From positions 1 through 62,764 of the forward strand of contig CAMWTJ010000010.1 of assembly GCA_947177185.1 (NCBI GenBank): 62,764 bases of DNA, read 5' to 3'. Below the pieces are notes generated by a model that worked only from the letters and a program-made list of their open reading frames with translations, did not search any database and was not told the DNA's origin. Of the stretch, positions 529 to 30,558 are shown one piece after another (position 1 is the first letter of the stretch; every line of letters begins with the position of its first letter). This DNA is from an uncultured Porphyromonadaceae bacterium. Lineage in GTDB: Bacteria > Bacteroidota > Bacteroidia > Bacteroidales > Muribaculaceae. A program made the translations under genes and the position numbers.

Positions 529-597
529 GGATGGTGCCATATCTGTGAATATTTGAGAGGTTTATACTATGATAAATTCGGTGGAAACAGGTCAGGA

Positions 598-1434: not shown

Positions 1435-1579
1435 ACTTTTAAAAAGAGTTGGTTTACGTTCTTGTGGGAATTGCAACCGTGCGGTAGGGAACGTGTCCAT
1501 CCACGCGGTTTAGATACTAAACACTGATTATAGTGCAAGACTGCGCTGTCAGGCCGCCATGCGGCCGACGGGCGAAATC

Positions 1580-1966
1580 TTAACGCTTGCTGAACTGGAA
1601 GCGCTTGCGGGCTTTGGGCTGACCGGGCTTTTTGCGTTCTACGGCGCGGGCGTCGCGGGTCATGAAGCCTGCTTTGCGGAGCACAGCCTTGTCGTCGGGG
1701 TTGATTTTGACGAGGGCGCGTGCGATACCGAGGCGGAGGGCCTCAGCCTGGCCTTTGTAGCCACCGCCGTCAAGATTGACGTGGATGTCGTACTTCTCGG
1801 CAGCGTCGATGGTGGTCAGGGGCTGCTTTACGATGAACTGGAGAATCGAAGAGGGGAAATACACTTCGAGGGGACGCTTGTTGATGGTGATGACGCCGGT
1901 ACCTTCCTTGAGGATTACGCGTGCCACGGCGGCCTTACGACGGCCTACTGCATTGATATTTTCCAT
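1580..1966 (-). CDS. rpsI: 30S ribosomal protein S9
   Basis: S9, 128 aa, whose C-terminal tail reaches the P site of the 30S subunit. The N-terminus [17 protein letters not shown] and the basic C-terminus ending in KRFQFSKR are diagnostic. It starts 8 nt after the rplM stop, so the two are co-transcribed and probably coupled, the near-universal L13-S9 pair. Confidence 0.98.
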
Positions 1967-1974
1967 TCTTTCGA

Positions 1975-2454
1975 TTATTTCAGGGTGTTAACATCAACAA
2001 CGACGGGGTTCTGAGCTGCATGGGGATGCTCGGGACCGTTGTACACGTGCATGTTCTCGATGAGGCGACGGCCCAGACGGTTTTTGGGCAGCATGCCTTT
2101 CATTACACGGATAAAGAGGGGGTGCATGCCGGGCTTGAGGTGCTTGTTGAAGCTCTTTTTCATGAGCACCTCGGGGGTGAGCTCGCGCTGACCGCCGGGA
2201 TAGCCGGTGTAGTTGAGGTAGATGCGGTCGGTCATTTTTTTGCCGGTGAGGCGCACCTTGTCGGCATTGATGATGATAACGTTGTCGCCGCACTCCACGT
2301 TGGGGGAGTAGCTGGGCTTGTTCTTGCCGCGGAGCAGGATGGCGACTTTCGAGCACAGACGGCCAAGGGGCTGGTCGGTTGCGTCGATCACCACCCACTG
2401 GTGTTCAACGCTCTGTGCGTTGGGTGAAAGGGTTTTGTAGCTTAAAGTATCCAC
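1975..2454 (-). CDS. rplM: 50S ribosomal protein L13
   Basis: L13, 159 aa, an early-assembling large-subunit protein. It shows the family blocks [33 protein letters not shown] and [10 protein letters not shown], then [21 protein letters not shown]. It is the first gene of the operon, with a clear promoter upstream. Between GGQRE and GMLPKN the sequence ([20 protein letters not shown]) looks a little longer than in Bacteroides L13, a lineage feature I cannot verify here. Confidence 0.97.
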
Positions 2455-2568
2455 TTTGGTTAATTTCTTGATTAGTTGTTAATTAAATGCCGCACGCACA
2501 GACCCGGCTCGGCCAAAAGCACAAAGCCCGATTGCCGGCAAAACTTTAATTTGGACATAATCGGCCTG

Positions 2569-2598
2569 CAAAGGTACAATTTTTTTCTCACATAACAA
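2569..2598 (-). promoter_or_regulatory. Promoter of the rplM operon
   Basis: On the minus strand TACCTTTG (2576-2569) matches the Bacteroidetes -7 consensus TAnnTTTG, with TTG at 2598-2596, 19 nt upstream, as the -33 box. Transcription would start near 2562, giving a leader of about 108 nt before rplM. The leader has room for autogenous control, but I see no specific structure. Confidence 0.75.
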
Positions 2599-2654
2599 TG
2601 CGCAATGCAGAAATTTATTTAACGGATGTTCAATAATCATTGTAAAACACCCGG

Positions 2655-2670
2655 CAGCAATGATTTGCTG
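2655..2670 (-). terminator. Weak hairpin at the end of cluster A
   Basis: A perfect 6-bp stem with a 4-nt loop (CAGCAA-ATCA-TTGCTG on the minus strand) starts 2 nt after the stop of the last cluster A gene. No U-run follows directly, so termination may be incomplete and could read into the rplM promoter region. Nothing else resembling a terminator is seen here. Confidence 0.35.
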
Positions 2671-2671
2671 T

Positions 2672-3690
2672 TCAGGGAAACAGGAAGCGGTGCACGGGTC
2701 CGGCATAGCGGCCGGCAAGCCTGTCGAAGCCTACGCACGCCCACGCTATCAGCACCGATACGGCTATGAGCACGGGAAACTCTATGTACACCGGCCCCAC
2801 GATGCTCTGCAGACCTTCCGACAGGTCGATGGCAGCGATGGTGAATATGATGAAATAGTGAAACAGGTATATTGGCAGCGTGTTTTTACCGAAGGTGATG
2901 AGCATGGTGCTCAGGCGGCTCTCGCCGCTCCAGAAGTCGCGCATATAGTAAAAGACTCCCAGCACCGTGACTATGCCGGCGAAGCTCGTAAGACGGCACA
3001 CCATGCTCGAGTCGGACAGATAGGAGAGGCCGAACAGCAGCACCACCGCCGCGAAGCACCATTTGTTGCGTATCACGTACAGAAATTCGTCGTAATACAG
3101 CCTGACAGCGGCGCCGAAGAAAAAGTAAGGCGCGAGCGAGATAGTCTGCGTGAGCGAGAGGAAGCCGCCTATGGGGCCGGTCATGAAATCGCGGGCGAAA
3201 CGCATGGCCACCGACCCCATGGCGAAGAGGACTATCGTTGCGGCCGCGTACACCACGAGCTGCGTGCGGCGTGAGGCTCCGGCAGCCGTCATGGCATAAG
3301 ACGCCACGGCAAACACCAGAAACGTCTGCACGAGGCTGTAGGTGAACCAGTAGCCGCCCTTGTGGGCGTCAAAAAGCGTATTTTCTACCCCCCCCTGTAT
3401 ATTTCACTGAATATCAAGAATATAGCCACCGTAGGCCACAATTGCTTGAGCAAGCGGTTTTTCACGCGCTTTTTCAGGAGGGCGGCGTCGTAGCAACCGT
3501 AGGCGAAAAATCCGCTCACAAAAAAGAACAGCGGCATCCTCACCCGCGAGAACACATACAGCACGCCGCTGTCGTCGCCGGGATTGTGCATGCTGCGTAT
3601 CACAAAGTGAAAGTATATAACGAGCAGAATCGTGAAACCGCGCATGGCGTCGATATAGTCCAGGCGCGGGCGTGATAATTTATCGGTCAT
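2672..3690 (-). CDS. Acyltransferase family 3 membrane protein, phase-OFF by frameshift at a G8 tract
   Basis: OafA/YrhL-type multi-pass O-acyltransferase that would add acetyl or another acyl group to the cluster A glycan in the inner membrane. The N-terminal part (from ATG 3690) has RLDYIDAMRGFTILLVIYFH and SRVRMPLFFFVSGFF, the family's catalytic-His and Arg region. Translation then runs into G8 at 3395-3388 and stops at TAG (3387-3385) after 101 aa. The rest of the protein (4-6 membrane segments, ending FLFP) continues in another frame. One more G gives EIYRGGVENTLFDAHKGGYWFT and a continuous 339-aa protein, normal for the family. It is the last gene of cluster A. A sequencing error in the run is the alternative. 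Confidence 0.85.
3388..3395 (-). repeat. Homopolymer tract G8-TA (gene OFF; G9 restores)
   Basis: Eight C on the plus strand, G8 followed by TAG on the coding strand, in an AT-rich stretch of an otherwise GC-rich gene. The present length puts TAG in frame directly after the tract. Confidence 0.9.
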
Positions 3691-3720: not shown

Positions 3721-4779
3721 TTATTTTCTTTTACGGGCAAACAGCGGCAACAGACGCGTCAGCGCCAGCGAAAGAGGCACAAACACGGCCAGCGCCGTGA
3801 GCAGTATCACCACCGGCTCGGAACTGGCGTATATCAGCTTCTGCAGGTGGCACGAGCCGGTATAGGCCAGGCCGTGCACAAACCACAGCGTCATGCTTAT
3901 GCCGCCGAAAAACAGCAGCACGCTGTCGAGCATGCGCGAATCAAACAAGTTCAGGAGCTTGACAGTGAAATAAATGAAGCCTGCGGCTATACAAGCCTCC
4001 ATCATGTACACCGCGGCCTCGGCCGCTCCATTGCCGTGGAAGCGCATGGCCAGGGCCAGCACAAGCGTGCGCGCCGCGAGCATGAGCAATAAGCCGCTGA
4101 GCATCAAAATCTTACCCCCCCCCATTAATTTTGTGGTATTTTCCGCTTTCGCAAACAGGTCGTACTTGGCCACACATATGCCCAGCACTCCCGACAGCAG
4201 CGGCACGAAATAGCCGCCGAGCCAGACGGTGTTGGCACACATAAGCAGCGCCACCGCGCCCACCACGGCAGTATCCTGCAGCGGGCCCCGCTGCATGGCG
4301 CGGTACAGCACGGGGCTTACGATTACGAACACTATATAATAGAACACGTACCATGCGAACACCACGTTGACTTCCGGGCGGTGCACAGTCGTGCCGAGCC
4401 CGAAGGCATTGGCCAGCGCGGTGCGCGGGGCCGGCAGAGTGTCGCCGCTCAGCCACGCCACGGCCAGGAACAGCACGCACACCACCCAGTAGCCTGTAAG
4501 AAAATCGAGGATGCGCCTCAGGCGCTTGCCCCAAGTGTCGAAAAGGTTCCACCGCCGCCACAGCACATATCCGCTTGAGAAAGCGAACACGTAGATGCAG
4601 ATATTTCCCAGCCGGCCTATGAGCCACACGGCCTTGTTGACGAGCGGACCAAACACAGAGTCGACCACGCAGCCGTCCACAAGCCAGTCGGCGTACGTGA
4701 ACAGATGGTGAATCAACATCAGCAGGATCGCTACGCCGGCCACCTTTTTGGCCTCCTGCGCGCCGTAGAACTCTTTCAT
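3721..4779 (-). CDS. Acyltransferase family 3 membrane protein, phase-variable, ON at G9
   Basis: 352-aa multi-pass membrane acyltransferase, probably an O-acylating enzyme of cluster A. It starts MKEFYGAQEAKKVAGVAILL, then has the His-containing LMLIHHLFTY and about ten hydrophobic segments, and ends in a basic KRK. The family call rests on topology and the N-terminal His motif; sequence similarity to OafA looks modest. A G9 tract (4123-4115) encodes MGGGK near residue 219, in frame. Gain or loss of one G would truncate the protein at about two thirds. The start overlaps the preceding GT4 stop by 4 nt, so the two are translationally coupled. Confidence 0.8.
   Translation of the reverse strand: MKEFYGAQEAKKVAGVAILLMLIHHLFTYADWLVDGCVVDSVFGPLVNKAVWLIGRLGNICIYVFAFSSGYVLWRRWNLFDTWGKRLRRILDFLTGYWVVCVLFLAVAWLSGDTLPAPRTALANAFGLGTTVHRPEVNVVFAWYVFYYIVFVIVSPVLYRAMQRGPLQDTAVVGAVALLMCANTVWLGGYFVPLLSGVLGICVAKYDLFAKAENTTKLMGGGKILMLSGLLLMLAARTLVLALAMRFHGNGAAEAAVYMMEACIAAGFIYFTVKLLNLFDSRMLDSVLLFFGGISMTLWFVHGLAYTGSCHLQKLIYASSEPVVILLTALAVFVPLSLALTRLLPLFARKRK
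4115..4123 (-). repeat. Homopolymer tract G9-TA (gene ON)
   Basis: Nine C on the plus strand; the coding strand reads ATG GGG GGG GGT AAG. Both flanks are AT-rich (ACAAAATTAAT before, TAAGATTTTGATG after). Confidence 0.9.
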
Positions 4780-12419: not shown

Positions 12420-13697
12420 TTACATGAAATAATACGGGCTGAAATCGCCTGTAAAATAGTAAGTGATGGGCTGAACGAACAAATCGAGAGTCGGAGCATA
12501 GTCCCATGCGGAGGACTGATGCATAACAAAGAAACGCACTATAAAAAACGCAGAAGCCACAAAACAGTAAAAGCCAGCCTCGGGCCTTTTGCGTATAAGC
12601 AGCGGAATCAGCAACGGAATAAACGAATACGAGTAGTAGAAAAAGCGGTATTGTATGAGTGGCGCTTTGGAAAACATCAGCACGAACAGCATCAGAAACA
12701 ACGCCATATATGATATGGGCAAAATAGCGCGCTGCACGTCTATTTCCTCAGTATTGTCGCTGCTGATGGCCTTGCGGTAGCTCACCAGCGACACTATCAC
12801 CGACAGAGTGAGCGGCACGAAAACCATTGCCATTATTCCGATGCTTATAAAGCCGCCGTCGCTGTAGGTTTCATTGCCATACATGCTCAGGCCGTAGTCG
12901 AGGGCCGAAACGCCTGTGGAGCCGCCCAGGGCGTTGCCTATCGCGCTGCTGAACACCACCACGGGCACAAAGCAGGCCAGCACAATGGCCCAGCGCTTGG
13001 GAGTGAGCCAGCTGTAGAACCACGGCACGAGCGACAGCAGGGCGAGATAGGCCGACGAGGTGTGAATCAGCACCGCCGCCACAAGCCAGCACCAATGGTT
13101 TTTGCCGTCCTCGGCCCTGCAGGCTATGGCGTAGATTACCACTCCCGCCGCGAGCATCTGGCGCACGAGCTGAAGCGTCATCACAAAGTACTGCGTGAAA
13201 AACGTGAGCACCAGTATGCCGCATATGAGCGAATATTTGGGGGCGTCGATCTTGCGCGCCACCTTGTAGGCCGCCAGGAAATGCAGCACGTACATGGCAA
13301 ACGACAGGTCGAAATAAAACAGCCGCACGCTGCCGCCGGTCAGATAGTACAGCAGCCAGGTGATAAAGCTGTAGAAGGGCTCCTTGCCGGATCCGCCCCA
13401 CGAGTCGAACACGGTGCCGTGCAGGCCGTTTACGGGCACGTTGATAAACATGCGCGTGTACACCACCTGGTCGCCGGTGATGGTCTTGGTGATGTTCACC
13501 AGGCTTATCCACGCCGCCGCGGTCACGGCAAACAGGAGTATCTCGCGCCGGTTGGCCGAATAGTCGTTGGGGGAATTCAGCACCACGAGCAGCGCCAGGA
13601 CCAGTCCCAGCAGCGGGTTTATCAGAAACAGGATGCCGGTGGCCACCATCTGGCCGTTGAAGCTGCTGCTCGGCCGGGCATTAATGGCTGTCAACAT
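12420..13697 (-). CDS. EpsG-like polysaccharide polymerase (Wzy role)
   Basis: 425-aa polytopic membrane protein with about ten hydrophobic segments. The block TGDQVVYTRMFINVP followed by GSGKEPFYSFITWLLYYLTG fits the EpsG family, whose members polymerise repeat units at the periplasmic face of the inner membrane. It is the only polymerase candidate in cluster A. Its start overlaps the preceding GT2 by 7 nt. Chain-length partner: the Wzc at 21871-24282. Confidence 0.8.
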   Translation of the reverse strand: MLTAINARPSSSFNGQMVATGILFLINPLLGLVLALLVVLNSPNDYSANRREILLFAVTAAAWISLVNITKTITGDQVVYTRMFINVPVNGLHGTVFDSWGGSGKEPFYSFITWLLYYLTGGSVRLFYFDLSFAMYVLHFLAAYKVARKIDAPKYSLICGILVLTFFTQYFVMTLQLVRQMLAAGVVIYAIACRAEDGKNHWCWLVAAVLIHTSSAYLALLSLVPWFYSWLTPKRWAIVLACFVPVVVFSSAIGNALGGSTGVSALDYGLSMYGNETYSDGGFISIGIMAMVFVPLTLSVIVSLVSYRKAISSDNTEEIDVQRAILPISYMALFLMLFVLMFSKAPLIQYRFFYYSYSFIPLLIPLLIRKRPEAGFYCFVASAFFIVRFFVMHQSSAWDYAPTLDLFVQPITYYFTGDFSPYYFM

Positions 13698-19097: not shown

Positions 19098-20242
19098 TTC
19101 GAATGTAATTTTCTATAGACAAGATTCATAGCCCTCTGCAGGCGCGTCGGGCTTGCGCAGCGGCGCATGAGCGCCGCCACATCGGAGCTTTTGTTCAGGC
19201 GGCTGAAAAACAGGCGCCGGTTGCCGTTGGGCGTGGCTGCGCGGAAATACGAGCCGTTGTAGCGGGCCACCGCGTCGGCGGATTCCTCCTTCAGCGTCAG
19301 GCCGCCCGCTGCGGCTGCGGCCGCCTCGGCGTCGTGCGCTATGATCATGCTCGTGCCGAGGTCGTCGTGCATAGCGGGGTCCACGTGCTGTATGCCCCAG
19401 AAATCGGCCAGCGTGAAAGCGCTGCCGCTGCAGCCGCCCTTGAAGGGGCACACGTAGCATATGGGGCGCAGCGACACGTCGTGCAGAAACACCTTCATGT
19501 ATGGGTTCTCCGCACGCGGCACGCACAGGGAGCCTTGCCGCGTGTCGATGCGCATGCAGTATTGCAGCCATCCGTGCGGCTTGGCGCGGAAATTTATGGC
19601 CGTGATGTCGGCGGCATTTCCGCCGGCGAGGCCTTGCTCGAGCAGCTGCCGCAGATACAGGCGCCACACGCGCGCGCTGGGCACGCCGTGGCATATCACA
19701 TCCACAGCCGTCAGCCCGGGATAGTCCTTGCGCAGAAAGCCGCGCAGACCGGCTATCTGACACGGTGTGCCCGTAAACAGCACCTCGCGGCCCTGCTTCA
19801 GAAAACCCTCGGCGCGGGCGTAGCAGTCGCCCATGCGGCTCTGCATATACTTGGAGCTGCGAAACGCCTCCAGGGCGTCGGGAGTTTCGGCACTGTCGTG
19901 GCACACCTCCCAGTTTTCGTCGAAACGGGCACCGAACACCACGCCGCCACGCTCCAGCACTCCGCGCGCAATCGCTCCGAACACACCGCCCGACGAGCTC
20001 TCGCGCCGCACATCCGCATCGGGGTTGACGGCGGCGTACACGCGCTTTATGTCGCGCGCGGGCGGAACGTTTATCACCGGGCACACGCGCTCGCAAAGGT
20101 CGCAGTGTATGCACCTCGTCGGGTCTACCTCGGGATAGCGGAATCCCTCGGAGTCCTCGTTGAAAGAAATGCACTGCTTCGGACAGCGCTGCACGCACGC
20201 GCCGCAACCGCAGCACTCGCGCGCATCCTTTATATCAATCAT
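19094..20242 (-). CDS. FrhB/FdhB-like coenzyme F420-type flavo-iron-sulfur protein
   Basis: 382 aa. The N-terminus has two 4Fe-4S ferredoxin motifs: C10-x2-C13-x2-C16-x3-C20-P and C44-x2-C47-x2-C50-x3-C54-P. The FrhB_FdhB core follows (RESSSGGVFGAIAR, FTGTPCQIAGLRGFL, DVICHGVPSARVWRLYL, PICYVCPFKGGCSGSAFTLADFWGI). The family binds flavin and passes electrons. In polysaccharide loci such genes recur next to pyruvyltransferase-family genes, as here, but the reaction is not established. It overlaps wzx by 8 nt. Confidence 0.9.
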   Translation of the reverse strand: MIDIKDARECCGCGACVQRCPKQCISFNEDSEGFRYPEVDPTRCIHCDLCERVCPVINVPPARDIKRVYAAVNPDADVRRESSSGGVFGAIARGVLERGGVVFGARFDENWEVCHDSAETPDALEAFRSSKYMQSRMGDCYARAEGFLKQGREVLFTGTPCQIAGLRGFLRKDYPGLTAVDVICHGVPSARVWRLYLRQLLEQGLAGGNAADITAINFRAKPHGWLQYCMRIDTRQGSLCVPRAENPYMKVFLHDVSLRPICYVCPFKGGCSGSAFTLADFWGIQHVDPAMHDDLGTSMIIAHDAEAAAAAAGGLTLKEESADAVARYNGSYFRAATPNGNRRLFFSRLNKSSDVAALMRRCASPTRLQRAMNLVYRKLHSK

Positions 20243-21770
20243 GCTTCAGTCGGAATATTCGTGAAAGCAACTGCCGTACAAAAGATTTTTCATTGCCGCT
20301 CAAACCTACAGAATACGCGCATCCGCATACCGATACTACCGCAGCCGCCATAACTGCAAAGGCGCCATACGCGGTATCAGGAAGAAAGATATACAGCAGC
20401 AAAGGCAACACTAACGCAAGCAATCCTGCCGCAATGCACGACACCACAACGTTTTTAAAAAACACCGATGGCGAAAGCATCGTAAGCGGTTTCACAATAT
20501 AAAGTCGTGCGACAAATGCTATAATACAGATAATCAGATGCACGACAAACACAGCTTCGGGCGGGGCGCCTAACTTAAGCGCCACATAGGCCACAGGCAG
20601 AATAGCTATCAGCAGGCCGCCCACCACACTCTGGTATTTCTTGATACGCCCGGTGGCCGCAGCCGCCACCATGAGCGGATTCGCAACCGAATCTATTATT
20701 GTTATCCATAATATTATGCGCAGAAACTGCACTGTGTGGGCGGGCACTTCCTCAAGCCACAGCCCGAGAACAAACGGCGCCTCAAACAATATCGGCAAAG
20801 CCAGGGCGTACAAAAGAAAGAATGTGAACTTTGCGCTGCGGAATATCAACGAGTGCATAGTCGCATAGTCTTCGGCAGCATAACTCTTGGTGATCTGAGG
20901 ATTGATTGCGGTCTGAAAATTCATGGAGAACTGCCCCACCGCAGCCTGCACCTGCACGGCCACACCTCGGGCCGCGTTCACCACCGGCCCGAAAAACACG
21001 TTCAGTATTATATTGATTCCTTGCGTGGAGCATATTGATGCAAGCTGCCCCCAAAGACTCCATCCGGCAAATACCGACATTTCCTTAAACAGTACTTTAT
21101 CGAACATGCGACGGAGTTTGACAGCAGCGAAATGCCGATGGCAATAGATGCCGTAGATAATGCGTATAATGAGCGGCGACAAAAACATAAGCACCGCAAA
21201 CAGCTTAAGTTTGTCAAACGGCGCTACCACAAGCAGAAACGCGATTCCGAGTTTAAGCAACACCTCGAAAATCGATATATAAGCGAACGCGCTCATGCGC
21301 TCGTACGCTATGATAACCGCAGTGTATGGAACGTTCAGGAACGATATTATCATAGACAATATCGAAAACTGAAACACCCAATAAGCGGCATCCAAGCGTT
21401 CGGGCGGAATCTGCATTTTATGATTCATGAACCACAAGCCTCCCACCTCAGTAACGACTGCGACGACTACTGCAATAAGGATATGAATATGAAGACTTGT
21501 GTTGAACGTCCTGTTCAGTTTCTCTTCATTGCCCCTACCCAGTTCGATAGTGAGAAAACGCTGTGTGCTGCTGGCCATTGACGAGTTCAAGAAAGCGAAC
21601 ATCATGACCACACCTCCTACTACATTATATATACCGTAGTCCTCAATGCCCAACTGCGCGAGCACGATTCTGCTGGTGTACAAGCCGATAGCCATAGCCA
21701 AAAACATCCTGAAATAAAGCAGGATAGTATTTTTTGCTATGCGGCGGCTTTTGTCGTGGGATGTTTCCAA
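20235..21770 (-). CDS. Wzx-type lipid-linked oligosaccharide flippase (MATE/MOP)
   Basis: About 511 aa with 12-14 hydrophobic segments. SRRIAKNTILLYFRMFLAMAIGLYT and LAQLGIEDYGIYNVVGGVVMM are typical of Bacteroidales O-antigen flippases. I place the start at TTG 21770 (LETSHDKSRR); the open frame reaches another TTG at 21791, but that codon lies within the 3' arm of a strong hairpin, which makes it an unlikely initiator. Role: flips the completed lipid-linked repeat unit of cluster A across the inner membrane. It is separated from wzc by a hairpin. Confidence 0.85.
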   Translation of the reverse strand: METSHDKSRRIAKNTILLYFRMFLAMAIGLYTSRIVLAQLGIEDYGIYNVVGGVVMMFAFLNSSMASSTQRFLTIELGRGNEEKLNRTFNTSLHIHILIAVVVAVVTEVGGLWFMNHKMQIPPERLDAAYWVFQFSILSMIISFLNVPYTAVIIAYERMSAFAYISIFEVLLKLGIAFLLVVAPFDKLKLFAVLMFLSPLIIRIIYGIYCHRHFAAVKLRRMFDKVLFKEMSVFAGWSLWGQLASICSTQGINIILNVFFGPVVNAARGVAVQVQAAVGQFSMNFQTAINPQITKSYAAEDYATMHSLIFRSAKFTFFLLYALALPILFEAPFVLGLWLEEVPAHTVQFLRIILWITIIDSVANPLMVAAAATGRIKKYQSVVGGLLIAILPVAYVALKLGAPPEAVFVVHLIICIIAFVARLYIVKPLTMLSPSVFFKNVVVSCIAAGLLALVLPLLLYIFLPDTAYGAFAVMAAAVVSVCGCAYSVGLSGNEKSFVRQLLSRIFRLKHD

Positions 21771-21775
21771 AGCGA

Positions 21776-21839
21776 TAAATAAAAATGGCAAAGGGAGCGA
21801 GTGGCTACAGGCAGGTGTTTCCGGTTCGTTCCCTTTGCC
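21776..21839 (-). terminator. Terminator or attenuator hairpin between wzc and wzx of cluster A
   Basis: On the minus strand a 14-nt arm (21839-21826) pairs with 21800-21787 with one mismatch (GGCAAAGGGA core) around a 25-nt loop, followed by ATTTTTATTTA. It sits 31 nt after the wzc stop, before the rest of the operon. Some polymerase must pass it for wzx and downstream genes to be made, so it probably attenuates rather than ends transcription. Confidence 0.65.
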
Positions 21840-21870: not shown

Positions 21871-24282
21871 TCAGTTGGAGTTGCCGCTCCCGTAGGAGGC
21901 GGCAGTGCCATAGCCGTAGCCATAGCGGTAGGCAGTGGAGGAGGCATAGCGGCCGCCGTCCATAGATGTGCCGTTGAGTATGTACGACATGTTGCGGTAG
22001 CGTTTTTCGTCGTACAGATGCTCGAGTTCGGGCAGCATGGCGCGCTCAAACAGTCCGGCGCGGAGCACAAACACGGTGCGGTCGGCATAGCGGGCCACAA
22101 TCTGCGTGTCGGCCACCACCTCGATGGGGGGACAGTCTATGAATATGTAGTCGTACTGCGCGCGCAGCGTGGTCAGCATCTTTTCGAAAAGCGGACTTTC
22201 GAGCAGCTCGGTGGGGTTGGGCGGCACTACGCCCACGGGGAGCACCGACAGCTTGCCGTCGGTGTCGGGCACGTGGCATACCAGACTTTCGAGATCGCTG
22301 TTCGCACCGCTCAGGTAGTTGGCGAGGCCCTGGCGCGGCGAGCCTACGAAGGCCGATGTGGACGCCTTGCGCATGTCGCCGTCGACCACCAGCACGCGCT
22401 TGTTTTTGAGCGCGAGCGCCATGGCTATGTTGAGCGTGACGAACGATTTGCCCGAACCGGGATTGAACGAGGTGACCACCACCACATCGGCTTTGTCGTG
22501 GTTGATGCGCATGAACTCCACGTTGGTGCGCACCACGCGGAAGGCTTCGTTGATGACATCGCGCGTGGAGGGCTTCACCACGAGCGTGTGCACGTCCTTG
22601 TCCTCGCTTCGGCTGGAGATTTTGCCACCCTTGCCGTGCTGCGGGATTTCGCCGAGGAAAGGCAGCGAGAGGCCTTCCACGTCCTTGCGGCCGCGCACGC
22701 GGGTGTTGAGTGTTTCGCGGAGGTAGACCACGCCGAAGGGTATCACGAAGCCTATCACGAAGGCTATCATGAGTATGTTGCGGCGGTTGGGCACGGGGGG
22801 CACGCCTGAGGGTCCGGGGCGGTTTATCACCTTGGTGTTGTAGGCGGTGAAGGCCTGCGAGAGCTCGTTTTCCTCGCGTTTCTGAAGCAGGAACAGGTAG
22901 AGCGACTCCTTGACCTTCTGCTGGCGCTCCACGCTCAGCAGGTATTTGGCCTGCGAGGGGTTGGAGGCTATGCGCGAGGTGGTCTGCGCCTCGCTGTGGC
23001 GGAGTGTGGAGAGCTGCGAGTTGAGGGCCACGATGTGGTTGTCAATGGTGGCAATGATGGCCGAGCGCTGCGCGTCGAGCTGCTCGTCGAGGGCCACCAC
23101 GAGGGGGTTTTTCTCCGACGATTTGGCTATGAGGGCGTTGCGCTGCAGTATGTTGGCGTTGTATTCGCCTATCTGCGAGTTGATGTCGGCGTTGGTGATG
23201 CCGGAGTTGGAGGGCAGCAGCTTGTCGCGCGCGTCGTCGGCGGTAAGGTACGAGCGCACGTAGCGGGTCATTTGCAGCTGGTTGTTGAGTGCGAGCATCT
23301 CCTGCGCTATCTGCTGGTTCTGATTCATGTAGAGCGACGACGCAGCCTCGAGGTTGGGAATCAGGTGCTGGCTTTTGTAGGACGAGATGTCGTTGTCGAC
23401 ATTGCCAAGCTCGCTCTCGATCACGCCGAGGCGGTCGTTGATGAAATTGCTTGTGGACACGGCTATCTGGTTGCGGTCGCGGAGCCAGTATTCGTTGTAC
23501 ACGCCTATGATGGTGTTGAGCACATCGTCGGCGCGCTGCACCGACTGGTCGGAAAAGCGCAGGGTGAGCACGGTGCCCTTGTCGCGGTCTTTTTTCTCGG
23601 CCGAGAAGCGCGCGGAGTAGGATGCCTGTGCGGCCGTGGTGGGAATCTTGCTCACGTGGAGCGTCACGGCTTCGCCCTCGGTATAGGCGTTGGATTTCTC
23701 CACCACCACGGGGCCGGCTATGGTGCTTATGGTGTCGCCGAAGGCCGCGTTGATTTTTTCTTTAGACTCCCGGCCGTCGCACTCGAAGTGCGAGAGCGTG
23801 AGCGCGCCGTTCTTGGCCACGTCGAGGTCGAAGGTAGCGGCGGCTTCGGCCGGCATGTCGACGAAATGCACCGCCACGGGTAGGTTGTCGCCGTAGGCCA
23901 CGGTCTTGTGAAGGCGTCCGTCGCGGAAATAGTTCACGTTGAGGTTCAGACGCTGCACCACCTCGAGCATGAGGTCTTTGGACTTGAGGGTGCTGATTTC
24001 GTTGGAGATGTTGCTCTTGGTGCTGAAGAGGCCGTAGTCGGCAAAATCGGCTGCGCCGGAGGATTTGCCGCTGCTGCTGTCCTTGATCATGAGTTCGGCC
24101 GAACGCGTGTACACGTCGGGGGTCTTCATCAGGTAGAGCATGGCAAGGCCTGTGCACACTGCCACAGACAGCAGCAGCCAGGGCCAGTGCCGCAGCGTCA
24201 TCAACAATATGTCGGTAATGGGCAGCGACGCGCCGGCCGCAGCCGCGGGTCGGGTCTTGCCGTAGGCGTTGGTTTGTGCCAT
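21871..24282 (-). CDS. wzc: Wzc: polysaccharide co-polymerase with BY-type tyrosine kinase domain
   Basis: 803-aa inner-membrane protein controlling chain length and export. It has a cytoplasmic N-terminus, TM1 at about 35-52, a Wzz-type periplasmic domain with a coiled-coil region (about 280-490), TM2 at about 502-521 (preceded by a Pro-rich segment), then the kinase: Walker A GSGKS at 609-613, Walker A' VLVVDGDM at 630-637, Walker B YIFIDCPP at 712-719. The Tyr-rich tail (779-797, seven Tyr) is the autophosphorylation cluster. It is paralogous to the cluster B Wzc with long near-identical stretches. It follows wza by 16 nt. Confidence 0.95.
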   Translation of the reverse strand: MAQTNAYGKTRPAAAAGASLPITDILLMTLRHWPWLLLSVAVCTGLAMLYLMKTPDVYTRSAELMIKDSSSGKSSGAADFADYGLFSTKSNISNEISTLKSKDLMLEVVQRLNLNVNYFRDGRLHKTVAYGDNLPVAVHFVDMPAEAAATFDLDVAKNGALTLSHFECDGRESKEKINAAFGDTISTIAGPVVVEKSNAYTEGEAVTLHVSKIPTTAAQASYSARFSAEKKDRDKGTVLTLRFSDQSVQRADDVLNTIIGVYNEYWLRDRNQIAVSTSNFINDRLGVIESELGNVDNDISSYKSQHLIPNLEAASSLYMNQNQQIAQEMLALNNQLQMTRYVRSYLTADDARDKLLPSNSGITNADINSQIGEYNANILQRNALIAKSSEKNPLVVALDEQLDAQRSAIIATIDNHIVALNSQLSTLRHSEAQTTSRIASNPSQAKYLLSVERQQKVKESLYLFLLQKREENELSQAFTAYNTKVINRPGPSGVPPVPNRRNILMIAFVIGFVIPFGVVYLRETLNTRVRGRKDVEGLSLPFLGEIPQHGKGGKISSRSEDKDVHTLVVKPSTRDVINEAFRVVRTNVEFMRINHDKADVVVVTSFNPGSGKSFVTLNIAMALALKNKRVLVVDGDMRKASTSAFVGSPRQGLANYLSGANSDLESLVCHVPDTDGKLSVLPVGVVPPNPTELLESPLFEKMLTTLRAQYDYIFIDCPPIEVVADTQIVARYADRTVFVLRAGLFERAMLPELEHLYDEKRYRNMSYILNGTSMDGGRYASSTAYRYGYGYGTAASYGSGNSN

Positions 24283-24298
24283 TATAATAGTGGTATTA

Positions 24299-25108
24299 TT
24301 ATTTGCTGAGGGTGATTACGAGAGTGGCGATAGTGATGGCAAACGAGCCGAGCGACACCCAGAACGAGGGCGTGTAGGGTGTGTTGCCGTTGGGGGTGGT
24401 GTTGCGCTTCTCCTTGTCGTTGGGCTCGACGTATATCACGTCGTTCTGCTGCAGGTAGTAGGCGGGCGATGCCATCACCTGCGCGGCGTCGGTGAGGTCG
24501 ACGCGGTACACCTCGGTGCCGCCGTCGTCGAGGCGGCGCATCACCATCACGTTTTCGCGCATGCCGTTGAGCTGAAGGTCACCTGCCAGGGCAATGCCGT
24601 CGATCAGCGTAAGGCGGTCTTTGTTGAACTCGTAGCGTCCGGGGCTGGCCACGGCGCCTATCACGTCGATGCCCGTGTTGGCGAATTCCACGTTGACTAT
24701 GGGGTCTTTGACGAGGTCGTGGCTCACGAGCTCGCCGGCTATATAGGCCGCCACCTCCTCGCGGTTCATGCCGGCGATGTGAAGACGTCCGAGCACGGGA
24801 AATATGATGTCGCCCTGCGAGTCGACGGTGTAGAGCGATGTCTGCGCGTTGCTGCTGCCGTTGCCCGACTGCCCGAGGCGGTTCTGCACGGTCACGAGGT
24901 TGAACAGCATGGAGAGCGAGGGGTCCTGAGTGCTCACCGTGATGGACATCTTGTCCTCGGGTTTCACACGTATCTCAAGCTCGCGCTGCGCGCGCACCAC
25001 GGCTCCGTTGTCGAGATTCTGGAAATACGTTACATTTTTCGGAGTGGAGCATGAGCTTGCGAGAGCTGCGGCTGCAATCAGAGGGAGGGCTATTCTTTTG
25101 AAGGCCAT
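24299..25108 (-). CDS. wza: Wza-like polysaccharide export lipoprotein
   Basis: 269 aa. Signal peptide and lipobox ASSC put the mature Cys at about residue 20. The Poly_export domain starts at about 30 (VRAQRELEIRVKPEDKMSI), an SLBB domain is at about 140-205 (VIGAVASPGRYEFNKDRL), and a hydrophobic C-terminal segment (WVSLGSFAITIATLVITLS) could span the outer membrane. It forms the export pore with Wzc. It is the first gene of cluster A, with a roughly 200-nt leader from the invertible promoter. The last 160 bp are nearly identical to the cluster B wza. Confidence 0.93.
   Translation of the reverse strand: MAFKRIALPLIAAAALASSCSTPKNVTYFQNLDNGAVVRAQRELEIRVKPEDKMSITVSTQDPSLSMLFNLVTVQNRLGQSGNGSSNAQTSLYTVDSQGDIIFPVLGRLHIAGMNREEVAAYIAGELVSHDLVKDPIVNVEFANTGIDVIGAVASPGRYEFNKDRLTLIDGIALAGDLQLNGMRENVMVMRRLDDGGTEVYRVDLTDAAQVMASPAYYLQQNDVIYVEPNDKEKRNTTPNGNTPYTPSFWVSLGSFAITIATLVITLSK
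24310..24469 (-). repeat. Long inverted repeat, copy in cluster A wza
   Basis: This stretch at the 3' end of wza matches 26329-26488 in inverted orientation with two mismatches in 160 bp by eye; the longest perfect run is about 89 bp. It is long enough for RecA-dependent recombination, which would invert the roughly 2.2 kb between, including the small promoter switch. Confidence 0.85.
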
Positions 25109-25275
25109 TCGAGTGTTGGATTTTGAGTTTCGTTACATTAGATAAAGGCCATATCTCCTAATCCTGCCGGAATCTACAACAAAGTATCAATCAGGCAGTT
25201 TAAACAAATGTGGCGATAAATTCGGGCGGCGGGCGCCCGCATTATTCCGAACATGTCGGGATGTCTGTTTTTTAT

Positions 25276-25294
25276 GTATCTCTTGTCAAGAGAT
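25276..25294 (+). repeat. Left 19-bp inverted repeat of the switch
   Basis: Sequence GTATCTCTTGTCAAGAGAT. Its reverse complement is identical to the right repeat. It is also a near-perfect dyad (ATCTCTTG, one central base, CAAGAGAT), so orientation is set only by the central base and the outer two or three bases. Homology outside is slight. Confidence 0.88.
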
Positions 25295-25308
25295 ATTTAT
25301 TCCGCATG

Positions 25309-25341
25309 CAAAGGTACGAAAAAATGCTGCAATTCTGCAAA
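25309..25341 (-). promoter_or_regulatory. Promoter inside the invertible segment, directed to cluster A
   Basis: On the minus strand TACCTTTG lies at 25316-25309 with TTTG at 25341-25338, 21 nt upstream: the Bacteroidetes -7 and -33 boxes at canonical spacing. Transcription would start near 25302, pass through the left repeat and reach wza at 25108 after a leader of about 195 nt. Confidence 0.75.
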
Positions 25342-25455
25342 TATGCGGGCTCTTTTGTTGTCGGCTTAGGGTCGGAATGTTAAATATGTTGAGCTATCCG
25401 GCAGAGTGGCGGCTGCATAAACATCATGCTTTAAGGCACATAAATGCCCACCCAA

Positions 25456-25474
25456 ATCTCTTGACAAGAGATAC
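25456..25474 (-). repeat. Right 19-bp inverted repeat of the switch
   Basis: Sequence ATCTCTTGACAAGAGATAC on the plus strand, the exact reverse complement of the left repeat. The distance to the cluster B wza start is 194 nt, close to the 167 nt between the left repeat and the cluster A wza. Confidence 0.88.
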
Positions 25475-25668
25475 TTACCCGCACCGTCGAATCAGCAACC
25501 ATTAACAAACGTTTTGGAACTCGCTGTTTTTTGGAATCATACTCACATAATAGCTTGTCGGTCTTTATTTTAACACACCCGGCAGGAATAAGAGTCACGA
25601 CCATATCCAAAGTCTTAACCACCCAAAACCCACACACCCTTCCATCAGCTAATCCATCTCAACTATTT

Positions 25669-26499
25669 ATGAAAAAGAGATTGCTTCTGGCCTCGATTGT
25701 GGCCACCATGCTTGCATCTTCATGCTCGACACCCCGCGACATAACCTACTTTCAAGACCTCGACAACGGAGCCGTGGTGCGCGCGCAGCGCGAGCTTGAG
25801 ATACGTGTGAAACCCGAGGACAAACTCACCATAATGGTCAGCACGCAGGACCCCTCGCTGTCGGCGCTGTTCAATCTCGTGCAGGTACAGAACCGCCTGA
25901 CCAACACCACCACCTCCACCAAAACCGTGGGCACGTCGACCAGCTCCGACGGCCGCGTGTCGTTCTACACCGTCGACTCGCAGGGCGACATCATGTTTCC
26001 CGTGCTCGGCAAGCTGCACGTGGCCGGCATGAACCGCGAGGAGCTCGTCAACTATATAGCCGGCGAGCTCGTGAGCCACGACCTCGTCAAGGACCCCATA
26101 GTTACCGTGGAGTTCGCCAACACGGGCATCTCGGTGATAGGCCAGGTGAAAATGCCCGGACGCTATGAGTTCAACAAAGACCATGTGACCATCATCGACG
26201 CCATAGCCATGGCCGGCGACCTCGACATCAACGGCATGCGCGAAAACGTCATGGTGATGCGCCAGCTGCCCGACGGGAGCTCCGAAGTGCATCGCGTCAA
26301 CCTCACCGACGCCGCGCAGGTGCTGAACTCGCCCGCCTACTACCTGCAGCAGAACGACGTGATATACGTCGAGCCCAACGACAAGGAGAAGCGCAACACC
26401 ACCCCCAACGGCAACACGCCCTACACGCCCTCGTTCTGGGTGTCGCTCGGCTCGTTCGCCATCACTATCGCCACTCTCGTAATCACCCTCTCCAAATAA
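25669..26499 (+). CDS. wza: Wza-like polysaccharide export lipoprotein (cluster B)
   Basis: 276 aa from ATG 25669 (MKKRLLLASIVATMLASSCSTP); the open frame extends 46 codons upstream but the lipoprotein signal with lipobox ASSC fixes the start. Poly_export domain from about 30 (VRAQRELEIRVKPEDKLTI), SLBB domain with VIGQVKMPGRYEFNKDHV, and a C-terminal hydrophobic segment identical to the cluster A copy. A Thr/Ser-rich insert (TTTSTKTVGTSTSSDG) distinguishes it. First gene of cluster B. No promoter of the usual type is seen directly upstream in the present orientation. Confidence 0.93.
   Translation: MKKRLLLASIVATMLASSCSTPRDITYFQDLDNGAVVRAQRELEIRVKPEDKLTIMVSTQDPSLSALFNLVQVQNRLTNTTTSTKTVGTSTSSDGRVSFYTVDSQGDIMFPVLGKLHVAGMNREELVNYIAGELVSHDLVKDPIVTVEFANTGISVIGQVKMPGRYEFNKDHVTIIDAIAMAGDLDINGMRENVMVMRQLPDGSSEVHRVNLTDAAQVLNSPAYYLQQNDVIYVEPNDKEKRNTTPNGNTPYTPSFWVSLGSFAITIATLVITLSK
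26329..26488 (+). repeat. Long inverted repeat, copy in cluster B wza
   Basis: Partner of 24310-24469, inverted, with two mismatches in 160 bp by eye. The 5' parts of the two genes are clearly more diverged, which suggests gene conversion or strong constraint at the 3' end. Confidence 0.85.
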
Positions 26500-26520
26500 A
26501 TATAAACACGCACACCACAC

Positions 26521-28926
26521 ATGGCTGAAATAATTGCAGCGAACGCCACGGCAGCAAAACGCCCGGCAGCTCACAACAACGGTGTTTCCATAACCGACAT
26601 CCTACTGCGCACACTCCATTTCTGGCCCTGGATACTGCTCTCGCTCGCAGTGTTCACCGGTGCCGCGGTGTTCTACCTGCTGCGCACCCCCAACGTCTAC
26701 ACCACCACTGCATCGATGCTGATCAAAGACCAGTCGGCGGGCAAAACGGCCGGCGAGGACTTCGGCAGCTACGGATTGTTCCAGAGCAAGAGCAACATAC
26801 AGAACGAAATCACCACCATGAAATCCATCGACATCATGGAGGAAGTGGTGCGCCGACTCGACCTCGACATCAACTACTTCCTGCCCGGACGTTTCCACGA
26901 CCGCGTGGCCTACGGCACCGGCCTTCCGGCACGCGTGGCTCTGCCCGGATTTCCCGAGCAGAGCGCCGCGTCGATGCGCCTTACAGTCAGCGCCGACAGC
27001 ACGGCCACAATCAGCCACCTGCACTCGGCCGACATCGACGACGAGCAGTCCTACACCGCACGGCTCGGCGACACCATAGCCACCGCCATAGGCCAAGTGG
27101 TGGTGACGGCAGGTCCGGCCTTCCCGGCCCCCGGAACGAAAGACGTGCAGCTCAAGGTGAGCAAGATGCCCGTCAGCGCCGCCGCCGGCAGCTACGAGGG
27201 GCGCTTCGCAGTGTCGCGCAACGAAAAGAAAGGCACCGTGGTGGACCTCACCATCACCGACCGCTCGACGCAGCGCGCGCAGGACGTGCTCAACACTCTG
27301 ATAGCCGTGTACAACGAATACTGGATACGCGACAAAAACATGATTGCCGTGTCGACGTCCAACTTCATCAAAGACCGCCTCGGGGTGATTGAAAACGAAC
27401 TCGGCAACGTCGACTCCGACATATCGTCGTACAAAAGCCAGCATCTGATTCCCAACGTGGAAGCGGCATCGTCTATGTACATGAGCCAGAACCAGCAGAT
27501 AGCGCAGGAGATACTAAGCCTCAACAACCAGCTGCAAATGACGCGCTACATACGCTCGTATCTCATCGACGACGGCAAGCGCGACCAACTGCTGCCCTCG
27601 AACTCCGGCATATCCAACGCCGACGTCAACTCCCTGATAGCCGAATACAACGACAAGATACTGCAGCGCAACGCGCTCATCGCCAAATCGTCGGAAAAGA
27701 ACCCGCTGGTGGCCGCTCTTGACGAGCAGCTCAGCGCACAGCGCTCCGCGATAGTGGCGTCGGTGGACAATGCCATCATAGGCCTCAACACCCAGATTAA
27801 AAACCTGCAGGGCTCGCAGGCTGCCACCACCAGCAAAATCGCCTCCAACCCCTCGCAGGCCAAATACCTGCTCAGCGTGGAGCGCCAGCAGAAAGTCAAG
27901 GAGTCGCTCTATCTGTTCCTGCTTCAGAAGCGCGAGGAAAACGAGCTCTCGCAGGCCTTCACCGCCTACAACACCCGCATCGTCAACCGCCCGTCGAGCT
28001 ACGGCCCCACGGCGCCAAACCGCAGCATGATACTCATGGTGGCCATAGCGGTGGGCCTCCTGCTGCCGTTCGTGGTGGTGTACCTATTAGAAATGAACAA
28101 CACCAAGGTGCGCGGCCGTAAGGACGTGGAAGGCCTCTCGCTGCCCTTCCTGGGCGAAATACCCACCAACGCGGCCAAAAACGCAGCCGGCAAAGCCACA
28201 CCCGCCAACGCCGGCAACCGCATCCTCGTCACCTCGGGCAGCCGCGACACCATCAACGAGGCTTTCCGAGTGCTGCGCACCAACGTGGAATTCATGCGCA
28301 ACCACGACCGCGCCGGCGCCAACGTCGTGGTAATGACATCGTTCAACCCCGGCTCGGGCAAATCGTTCATCACCATGAACCTGGCCGCCGCACTGGCCAT
28401 CAAGGGCCGCCGCGTGCTCGTAATCGACGGCGACATGCGCCACGGCTCCGCATCGGACTACGTGGGCTCGCCGCGCCAGGGCCTCGCTGCCTACCTCAGC
28501 GGCGCCATCACCTCGTCGAAGAGCATCATCTTCCCCGTGGCCGACAACGAAGGCCTGAAAGTGCTGCCCGTGGGCATCATGCCCCCCAACCCCGCCGAGC
28601 TGCTCGAAAGCCCCCGCTTCACGGCCCTTATCGACGAGCTGCGCTCGGAGTTCGACTACATACTCATCGACTGTCCGCCCGTGGAGGTGGTGGCCGACAC
28701 GCAGATCATCGACCAGGTGGCCGACCGCACCATTTTCGTGGTGCGCGCCGGACTGCTCGAACGCGCCATGCTCGACGAACTCGAGAAATTCTATGCCGAG
28801 AAGAAGTACCACAACATGGCCTTCATACTCAACGGCACCGTCACCGGCAACGGCCTCCACGGCTATACCTACAGCTACGGCTACGGATATGCCCAGGGCT
28901 ACGACTACGGCAACGCACAGGAATAA
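26521..28926 (+). CDS. wzc: Wzc: polysaccharide co-polymerase with BY-type tyrosine kinase domain (cluster B)
   Basis: 801-aa paralogue of the cluster A Wzc. TM1 at about 36-53, Wzz-type periplasmic region with coiled coils, TM2 at about 503-523, kinase domain with Walker A GSGKS at 611-615, Walker A' VLVIDGDM near 633-640, Walker B YILIDCPP near 713-720, and a Tyr tail (782-796) with YTYSYGYGYAQGYDYG. Regions such as NPSQAKYLLSVERQQKVKES are identical to the cluster A protein, with only a few DNA differences. It lies 21 nt after wza. Role: chain length and export of polymer B. Confidence 0.95.
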   Translation: MAEIIAANATAAKRPAAHNNGVSITDILLRTLHFWPWILLSLAVFTGAAVFYLLRTPNVYTTTASMLIKDQSAGKTAGEDFGSYGLFQSKSNIQNEITTMKSIDIMEEVVRRLDLDINYFLPGRFHDRVAYGTGLPARVALPGFPEQSAASMRLTVSADSTATISHLHSADIDDEQSYTARLGDTIATAIGQVVVTAGPAFPAPGTKDVQLKVSKMPVSAAAGSYEGRFAVSRNEKKGTVVDLTITDRSTQRAQDVLNTLIAVYNEYWIRDKNMIAVSTSNFIKDRLGVIENELGNVDSDISSYKSQHLIPNVEAASSMYMSQNQQIAQEILSLNNQLQMTRYIRSYLIDDGKRDQLLPSNSGISNADVNSLIAEYNDKILQRNALIAKSSEKNPLVAALDEQLSAQRSAIVASVDNAIIGLNTQIKNLQGSQAATTSKIASNPSQAKYLLSVERQQKVKESLYLFLLQKREENELSQAFTAYNTRIVNRPSSYGPTAPNRSMILMVAIAVGLLLPFVVVYLLEMNNTKVRGRKDVEGLSLPFLGEIPTNAAKNAAGKATPANAGNRILVTSGSRDTINEAFRVLRTNVEFMRNHDRAGANVVVMTSFNPGSGKSFITMNLAAALAIKGRRVLVIDGDMRHGSASDYVGSPRQGLAAYLSGAITSSKSIIFPVADNEGLKVLPVGIMPPNPAELLESPRFTALIDELRSEFDYILIDCPPVEVVADTQIIDQVADRTIFVVRAGLLERAMLDELEKFYAEKKYHNMAFILNGTVTGNGLHGYTYSYGYGYAQGYDYGNAQE

Positions 28927-29010: not shown

Positions 29011-30558
29011 ATGGCCGAATCCCGCGTAAAGAAAACACTGCTCAACGCACGCGTCAATCTCATATTCTATTTCCTGACGCTGCTGCTCAGTTTTTTCTCC
29101 CGCAAGATTTTCCTCGACTGCCTCGGAGCCGACTTCGTGGGCCTCACAGGCACACTGCAGAACCTGCTCGGCTTTCTCAACCTTGCCGAACTCGGCATAG
29201 GAAGCGCCATCGGCTATGTGCTCTACAAACCCCTCTTCGACAACGACCGCGACAGCATCAACGAAATAATATCCGTGATGGGCTATCTCTATCGATGGAT
29301 AGGCATGCTCATACTCGGCGCCGGTCTTATACTCGCGTGCTTCCTTCCCCTGATATTTCCCGACAGCGACACCGGATTCAGCCTCCCCCTGATTTACTTT
29401 GTCTATTTTGCATTTCTGACCTCTTCACTTATTGGCTATTTCATCAACTACCGGCAGAATCTGCTCGGCGCCGACCAGCGCAACTACGTTGTCACAGGGT
29501 ATTTCCAAAGCGTCAACATTCTCAAGACCGTCGTACAGATGGCGGCCGCATACTACACGCGGTCGTACTATCTGTGGGCGGCCATCGAGATTACGTTCGG
29601 AATCACCTACTCCTTCATCCTCAACTGGAAAATAAACCAGACCTATCCCTGGCTCCGCGCGGAAATAGCCCTCGGGCGCGCGGTGTTCAAAAAGTACCCC
29701 GAGGTAATGCGCTACACCCGCCAGCTCTTCATACAGAAAATCAGCTATATCGTTCAGTATCAGACTGTGCCTTTCCTCATTTACGCTTTCGTAAATCTGA
29801 AGATTGTAGCGTTTTATGGCAACTATACTATCGTTACCGATAAGCTCGCCAACCTCGTAAACACGTTTCTTGAGAGTTCCGGCGCAAGTATAGGCAACCT
29901 TATAGCCGAAGGCAATCAGAACAAAATCAAAAAATTGTTTTGGGAGCTTATCAGCATGCGATATTTCGTCGGCGGCGTGCTCTCGTATGCGGTCTACACG
30001 CTTATCAACCCTTTTATCTGCCTGTGGCTCGGAGCTGAATATCTTCTGCCCGACATTGTAGTAATATTGATTGTCGTAAACATATTCATCAGCTACACAC
30101 GCGGGGGCGTAATGCAGTTTTTGTTCGGCTACGGACTGTTTTATGATGTGTGGGCGCCTATCGCCGAGATAGTGATTAATCTGTCGGTAGCCACAGTAGG
30201 AGGCCATCTTTACGGACTCCCGGGCGTAATCATGGGAGGCATCACAAGTCAGATACTCATAGTGTGCATATGGAAACCGTATTTCCTGTTCCGAAAAGGC
30301 TTCAATCAGAGCGTAATCGTGTATTGGCGCGGCATACTGCTGCGGATGCTATGCATAGCGATTCCGATACTGACCACAAATGCTTTGATACGACATTTGT
30401 TTCCTGAATCCGTGACCTCCTTCACCGCCTGGATTATGCTGGCCATAACAGCCGTTGGCTCCTACGTGGCCCAGGAACTGGTGCTCACGCTTTCGCTCAC
30501 CAAAGGAATGAGAGATTTTGTTTCACGATTTATACCAAAACGATTCAAGACCAACTAA
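29011..30558 (+). CDS. Wzx-type lipid-linked oligosaccharide flippase (cluster B)
   Basis: 515-aa polytopic membrane protein with 12-14 hydrophobic segments. N-terminus VKKTLLNARVNLIFYFLTLLLSFFSRKIFLDCLGADFVGLTGTLQ and a LAELGIGSAIGYVLYKPL block, typical of a second Bacteroidales flippase subfamily. It is not close to the cluster A flippase, so wza-wzc are shared in origin but wzx is not. Role: flips the repeat unit of polymer B. Confidence 0.88.
   Translation: MAESRVKKTLLNARVNLIFYFLTLLLSFFSRKIFLDCLGADFVGLTGTLQNLLGFLNLAELGIGSAIGYVLYKPLFDNDRDSINEIISVMGYLYRWIGMLILGAGLILACFLPLIFPDSDTGFSLPLIYFVYFAFLTSSLIGYFINYRQNLLGADQRNYVVTGYFQSVNILKTVVQMAAAYYTRSYYLWAAIEITFGITYSFILNWKINQTYPWLRAEIALGRAVFKKYPEVMRYTRQLFIQKISYIVQYQTVPFLIYAFVNLKIVAFYGNYTIVTDKLANLVNTFLESSGASIGNLIAEGNQNKIKKLFWELISMRYFVGGVLSYAVYTLINPFICLWLGAEYLLPDIVVILIVVNIFISYTRGGVMQFLFGYGLFYDVWAPIAEIVINLSVATVGGHLYGLPGVIMGGITSQILIVCIWKPYFLFRKGFNQSVIVYWRGILLRMLCIAIPILTTNALIRHLFPESVTSFTAWIMLAITAVGSYVAQELVLTLSLTKGMRDFVSRFIPKRFKTN

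Follow-up and report, generated by a model that had tools for sequence, protein, structure and literature searches.

Two polysaccharide operons point away from each other in the genome of an uncultured member of the Muribaculaceae, and the question that this locus raises is whether a single invertible promoter lying between them could serve both. The window (the whole stretch of DNA that was analysed, 62,764 nucleotides) carries a short predicted segment between inverted repeats at this position. In our assessment it is likely that this segment is a site-specific invertible promoter common to the two divergent operons, that a recombinase encoded on another contig of the same genome (C72) probably flips it, and that one operon is transcribed per cell.

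The intergenic segment and its two operons

The features of the locus are listed by their positions in the window.

3721-25108, minus strand: cluster A as assigned, with export genes, glycosyltransferases, and pyruvyl and acyl transferases
3721-4779, minus strand: acyltransferase, last gene assigned to cluster A
12420-13697, minus strand: EpsG-family protein, polymerase-like candidate of cluster A
20235-21791, minus strand: cluster A flippase, Wzx-like (MatE match; sub-threshold match to NCBIfam WZX_like)
21871-24282, minus strand: wzc of cluster A
24299-25108, minus strand: wza of cluster A (PF02563; NCBIfam matches all below cut-off)
24294-24838, minus strand: part of wza A, 87% identical, inverted, to 25960-26504
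25109-25275, minus strand: leader of cluster A, 167 nt, arm directly to wza
25276-25294, plus strand: left arm, GTATCTCTTGTCAAGAGAT, 19 bp
25295-25455, no strand: predicted invertible segment between the arms, 161 bp, 44% G+C against 57% for the window
25309-25316, minus strand: -7 box TACCTTTG, ending 14 nt from the left arm core and pointing to cluster A
25338-25341, minus strand: -33 box TTTG, with a 21-bp spacer to the -7 box
25354-25388, plus strand: weak promoter candidate toward cluster B, one to two mismatches, inside the segment
25456-25474, minus strand: right arm, matching the left arm in inverted orientation at 19/19 bp
25475-25668, plus strand: leader of cluster B, 194 nt, arm directly to wza
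25669-50978, plus strand: cluster B as assigned
25669-26499, plus strand: wza of cluster B, with its ATG at 25669, in line with the start of wza A
25960-26504, plus strand: section of wza B that pairs with 24294-24838
26521-28926, plus strand: wzc of cluster B
29011-30558, plus strand: cluster B protein, probably a flippase, with homologs in two other capsule operons at 53% and 60% identity
40229-41563, plus strand: Wzy_C protein, polymerase-like candidate of cluster B
49980-50978, plus strand: acyltransferase, last gene assigned to cluster B

The first-pass annotation had described perfect 19-bp inverted repeats around 161 bp, and this description was borne out. The arms match at 19/19 positions; when the 560-bp intergenic region was shuffled 500 times with its dinucleotides preserved, the longest inverted repeat (no more than 400 bp apart) was 12 bp. 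Each arm has the architecture ATCTCTTG-n-CAAGAGAT, a 17-bp palindrome except for its centre base. When the arms are compared as direct repeats, the 17-bp cores agree everywhere but at the centre; as inverted repeats, they agree at 19/19. In a scan of the window that allowed up to three mismatches, the arm sequence was found at the two arm sites only (0.01 expected), and the 19-base core pattern with up to two mismatches was likewise confined to these sites in the whole assembly, where the segment with its arms is present in a single copy. Since the arms are palindromic apart from the centre, a pair of regulator sites is a serious rival that needed testing, and it is weighed below.

Capsule invertons are marked by perfect or near-perfect inverted repeats around about 150-200 bp, by an outward Bacteroidetes promoter within the segment, and by an export and synthesis operon just downstream. 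All of these are present here, as the 19/19 bp arms around 161 bp, as TTTG-N21-TACCTTTG, and as wza-wzc on either side. No perfect TTTG-N19..21-TAnnTTTG besides this minus-strand promoter (25341 to 25309) is found in the 62.7-kb window, and shuffling the intergenic region 2000 times gave a perfect match in 35 cases. The earlier claim of a lone canonical promoter toward cluster A stands, and its companion, that nothing points to cluster B, has to be softened because of the weak candidate at 25354-25388, which reads TTTG-N23-TAAATATG or GTTG-N20-TAAATATG. As this candidate faces cluster B and promoter scans overlook unusual promoters, cluster B might be transcribed in the present orientation. 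A promoter pattern scan of leader B gave no perfect or one-mismatch promoter. Leaders A and B have a CCGGCAGGA stretch in common.

The two clusters had been called complete divergent operons. Each does encode Wza and Wzc as well as proteins resembling a flippase and a polymerase, but neither has a PF02397 initiating transferase, so that "complete" goes a little too far; the three such genes in the genome are all on contigs other than the window's. The protein encoded at 29011-30558 had no Pfam or NCBIfam match, and it is probably a flippase, judging by homology to other capsule-operon proteins and by manual reading. In inverted orientation, the DNA identity between clusters A and B is 84% in wza, dropping to 73% in wzc. 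The two Wza proteins are 80% identical, their best match in the 48 other genus genomes reaches 69%, and they are mutual closest relatives among the 49 genus genomes. Of the plus-strand ORFs at 82-3274, where the window begins, the four that were tested had no Pfam match.

A gene for an UpxY-like antiterminator at the head of the operon is a common trait of capsule invertons, which we do not take as required. A tblastn search of the window with four UpxY-like queries found no such gene. By Pfam, a NusG domain is present in the queries from L031 and L041, the query from L065 has none at E<=0.1, and the fourth query came from L039. UpxY is present in G090, L031, and L041, and L096 likewise has an inverton-like pair without an UpxY match. 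The other Wza loci of the genome (C22 and C27) gave no convincing inverton. In C27, two weakly matching repeats (87% over 15 nt) were discounted, since they contain -7-like letters themselves.

Relatives of the arms and a candidate recombinase

Exact arm pairs, with the centre base left free, were found in 12 of 397 family genomes (the present one included), representing 7 of 30 genera, and a reversed-pattern control gave 0. A scan of a one-genome-per-species collection returned 25 stretches with an arm pair. By title these belong to Bacteroidales (including Candidatus Pullibacteroides) save one titled Pseudoflavonifractor, in which the segment is the same as that of family member G057; the titles besides Candidatus Pullibacteroides are taken by us to be Bacteroidales. 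Pooling both searches and removing 10 duplicates gave 28 distinct pairs, the window included; G019 (L043), with a single exact arm, was excluded. The arms are 150-194 bp apart in these pairs. The centre bases are complementary in 28/28, for which the chance with a random centre is 0.25 to the 28th; several of the pairs are paralogous, so the effective number is smaller and the result is still extreme. A perfect outward TAnnTTTG box lies 12-15 nt from an arm in 27 pairs and 25 nt from it in the remaining pair, and in all 28 such a box is found within 8-27 nt of one arm alone. Viral contigs contained no exact pair of arms at a distance of 141-201 bp, and a phage-borne switch was rejected for this reason. 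A search for the arm letters in the accessible open literature gave 0 matches.

Alignment of relatives had been proposed as a way of finding both orientations. It succeeded in two comparisons within the arm class and not at the window locus, where the 581-bp region drew only 4 short partial matches from the other 48 genus genomes. In G383, two contigs have one flank in common (95%, 147 nt) and a 181-nt segment (91% identical) that is reversed; on the other flank the similarity stops roughly 20 nt beyond the arm, so the two contigs may be paralogous loci. In L038 and L068, which come from two species, both flanks are common (68% over 675 nt and 70% over 421 nt), the recombinase is on the same side, and the promoter points in opposite directions. 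Other homologous pairs, for example L058/L067, L053/L059, and L055/L056, have the same orientation.

The arm class also precedes genes unlike capsule genes (L038 10283-12560, L068 2325-3675, L036, and L042). In L038 and L068 these are a gene that we take, by manual reading, to be FHA-like, followed by one presumed to be caspase-like. The regulon of the arm class may be wider than capsules.

Tyrosine-recombinase domains (SAM-like, Phage_integrase) are encoded beside the arm pairs of L031, L038, L042, L065, L068, and L072, and one flank of L048, L053, L055, L056, L057, L058, L059, and L067 shows homology to the L072 flank. Inversion by a tyrosine recombinase calls for a related recombinase in the genome, and one is encoded on another contig (G000:C72:1223-2407). 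Its product is 62% identical to the L068 recombinase, has Phage_int_SAM_5 and Phage_integrase domains, and conserves the RHSW motif and the C-terminal tyrosine. The neighbouring gene is presumably mutL-like, as named by manual reading. On this homology, C72:1223-2407 is probably the recombinase for the window arms, acting in trans. A recombinase homolog at E<=1e-60 is present in 12/12 arm-pair genomes and in 207/385 others (p=0.0007), a comparison that covers the 12 arm-pair family genomes alone within the 397-genome set. The association is real but modest: the recombinase family is common (219/397 family genomes), so it lends support short of proof, and the link from C72 to the arms is one that we infer.

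Three genomes each hold two or three homologous recombinase-plus-inverton cassettes (L048, L053, L055-L059, L067, and L072). In seven of those nine loci, the recombinase-like gene stops 10-12 nt from the arm. The cassette looks like a spreading unit; the Pfam domains are known for L072 among the nine. Variant palindromic arms were seen at other capsule loci, namely L090, L096, L101, and L103 (TCTCTTGGTAAGAGA, ATCTCTTAGTAAGAGA, TCTCTCCGTAGGAGA, and CTCTTTTGAAGAGAT). The arms of L096 and L101 are near recombinases that are 55% and 46% identical to C72:1223-2407, and arm sequence and recombinase may co-vary.

A further group of proteins of about 470-485 aa combines a tyrosine-recombinase-like front half with a NusG/UpxY-like back half, and is encoded beside inverton-like segments or before wza at the following positions.

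L075 340-1794: fusion protein
L076 8631-10043: fusion protein
L077 612-2060: fusion protein
L033 8360-9775: fusion protein
L037 18252-19709: fusion protein
L087 1570-3009: fusion protein
L103 4410-5828: fusion protein

In a profile comparison of the first five (L075, L076, L077, L033, and L037), the back half matched UpxY-like proteins with 98.3% probability and the front half matched recombinases with 97.5%. The L103 fusion has a Phage_int_SAM_4 match and a weak NusG match below cut-off, and the L076 and L077 fusions taken alone had no Pfam match. By manual reading, the catalytic Arg I, His, and Tyr look to be lost. Perhaps these proteins are antiterminators that recognise the inverton arm. 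One query found no such fusion in the genome of the window, and the empty result of that search is uninformative. Two of the fusions belong to related capsule loci of G033, a genus member (L076 9951-10372 and L077 270-470). Ahead of its capsule operon, L077 carries two inverton-like repeats, CTCTTAACAAGAG, separated by 171 nt. L076 has a similar sequence, ATCTCTTATCAAGAG, as a single arm about 150 nt before the end of its contig; such an end could arise where both orientations coexist.

Probable sharing of one segment by two operons

Among the 28 pairs, that of the window alone was seen between two divergent polysaccharide operons; six of the pairs extend for less than 500 nt on one side. Within the 49 genus genomes, a close divergent Wza pair is present only in the genome of the window (G000), and the next opposite-strand pair is about 14 kb apart. 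The family was surveyed with two Wza queries against the 397 genomes, using the best 150 or so matches of each and picking pairs by eye. Among the matches listed, close divergent Wza pairs were found only in G000 and in G090:C3, each with a shared segment. The regions inspected after the first Wza survey were G090 and 19 of the best 30, several of which stop at contig ends; of the 11 others, two are the window itself and three were retrieved separately.

G090:C3 belongs to a different genus and has the same layout within a 131-kb contig. As in the window, a single perfect -7 box and perfect arms lie between divergent wza-wzc operons, with inverted paralogs near the switch. Its arms (perfect, 21 bp, 163 bp between them) read GTCTCTTAGTAGGAGACGGAT, unlike those of the window. 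The -7 box faces left and its -33 box is one base off; a one-mismatch promoter candidate lies left of the segment, outside it. On either side is upxY-wza-wzc with a flippase-like gene, so that, in contrast to the window, upxY is first in both operons. Its inverted copies are 84% identical over a block of 511 nt that surrounds upxY, and beyond it the values are mostly 67-77%. In this comparison the two Wza proteins are 77% identical to each other in the window and 67% in G090, and they are 45-48% identical to those of the other genome. Since Wza pairs are more alike within than between genomes, the two switches were probably built independently, each via an inverted duplication of the operon start. 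With a second shared segment in another genus, the layout is rare rather than unique: the first-pass annotation was right in calling it unusual (1 of the 28 pairs), and G090 keeps it from being the only case.

The element itself is of a known kind, and its sharing by two clusters looks rare in the survey. In B. intestinalis, according to the accessible text of PMC8375218, capsule invertons consist of a 183-186 bp promoter segment between inverted repeats with a capsule operon downstream, and transcription starts inside the proximal repeat. The -7 box of the window is 14 nt from the arm core, so the start would be near or in the arm, which fits this description. The window resembles the Mpi-type switches of Bacteroides fragilis and B. 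intestinalis, as described there, in its similar-sized promoter segment, inverted repeats, and downstream capsule operon. It differs from them in its palindromic arms and its tyrosine recombinase candidate. Their repeats, GTTCGTTTAA and ARACGTTCGTN (the latter tied to a serine recombinase), differ as well: ARACGTTCGTN-type repeats of the Mpi/serine-recombinase inverton are absent, and the arms are unlike the repeats printed in that text. The same source gives each capsule locus its own segment, in agreement with the earlier statement that known Bacteroides capsule switches have their own promoter per operon, whereas a single segment is common to two operons in the window and in G090.

A second comparison is offered by Tsr19 / BF2766 of B. 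fragilis. In the accessible parts of PMC4747536 and PMC3090145, this one tyrosine recombinase acts on two separate promoters, near its own gene and distant from it, and one flipped promoter controls a wbaP-wza-wzc operon. The proposal for C72 is similar in having a single tyrosine recombinase act away from its own gene, a likeness that leaves arm sequences aside. The Tsr19 segments differ in driving one side each, IVp-II being reported to have no role in the upstream groES/EL operon. No invertible promoter common to two capsule operons is described in the accessible text of the papers on such invertons (PMC3090145, PMC8375218, PMC11892184, PMC4747536, PMC5903667, PMC11868660, and PMC8748976), the catalogue of Jiang et al. 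2019 being outside that scope.

Proposed switch, rival explanations, and meaning

The geometry of one promoter and two operons, as first proposed, was upheld, and comparative evidence (28/28 complementary centres, both orientations, and recombinase genes alongside) indicates that the arms act as recombination sites. From this we infer the following course for the species. A tyrosine recombinase, probably C72:1223-2407 in trans, would recombine the palindromic arms and flip the 161-bp segment. In the assembled orientation, the promoter points leftward and would drive cluster A. In the flipped form, it would lie at 25409-25441, point rightward, end 14 nt from the right arm core, and drive cluster B. 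Each cell would transcribe A or B, and there would be no state with both off. In Salmonella, the Hin system uses one invertible promoter to choose between two alternative surface products, and the alternative is silenced indirectly via a repressor. Unlike this, the window promoter would face the second operon directly.

In an alternative view nothing would invert: the divergent promoter region would be fixed, and a dimeric regulator would use the two arms as its operators, perhaps by looping across about 178 bp. Palindromes with a one-base centre are frequent among dimer operators, and the region does lie between divergent operons; operators do not, however, require the complementary centres that every pair of the class has, and the reversed segments of relatives and the recombinase genes adjoining several pairs also speak against them. 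Regulator operators were rejected on the centre bases and orientation, and this explanation is very unlikely. It is less improbable, but still unlikely, that the segment is a plain ON/OFF inverton of cluster A and that cluster B is a mere neighbour transcribed from a separate promoter, fixed or regulated. Such an arrangement would suit the finding that none of the 27 further pairs was seen between two polysaccharide operons, and likewise the weak plus-strand candidate toward cluster B. Against it, leader B lacks a perfect or one-mismatch promoter, both leaders (167 and 194 nt) run directly from arm to wza with a stretch in common, and G090 has the same symmetry.

Switching could also proceed chiefly by homologous recombination between the inverted wza-wzc copies, with a larger block being flipped. 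The inverted DNA identity (wza 84%, wzc 73%) would permit this, but it leaves the 19-bp arms, the arm class, and the neighbouring recombinases unexplained, and as the main route it is extremely improbable. As a rare event, homologous recombination may still take place and so maintain the similarity of the wza copies. Finally, the halves of two inverton-bearing loci could have been joined in assembly. Invertible repeats can break or misjoin assemblies, and this genome (82 contigs, 91% complete) has the look of a metagenome assembly; a misjoin is therefore possible, though the segment has no second copy. G033 supplies a parallel, having two related loci on separate contigs, one of which apparently ends within an inverton-like segment. 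The artefact is nevertheless highly improbable given that the segment and arms are single-copy in the assembly, that Wza A and Wza B are closest to each other (80% identity, where the 48 other genus genomes offer 69% at most), and that G090 has the same layout inside a 131-kb contig.

An invertible promoter shared by the two operons would have consequences for the surface of the bacterium. Where each locus has its own promoter, as in the known Bacteroides switches of the accessible text of PMC8375218, loci can be turned on or off separately. A shared segment would couple the two operons, so that one flip swaps the coat and no orientation leaves both off, which bears on phage and immune escape. 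The two cases with an inverted duplication of the operon start suggest a simple evolutionary route to an A-or-B switch. The arm class, palindromic save for its centre, provides a sequence handle for finding switches and recombinases in uncultured Bacteroidales. On balance, we lean toward the view that this gut family, the Muribaculaceae, makes recurrent use of two-way capsule toggles and that these have arisen independently at least twice, a promoter-proximal inverted duplication turning an ON/OFF switch into an A-or-B switch without an off state.
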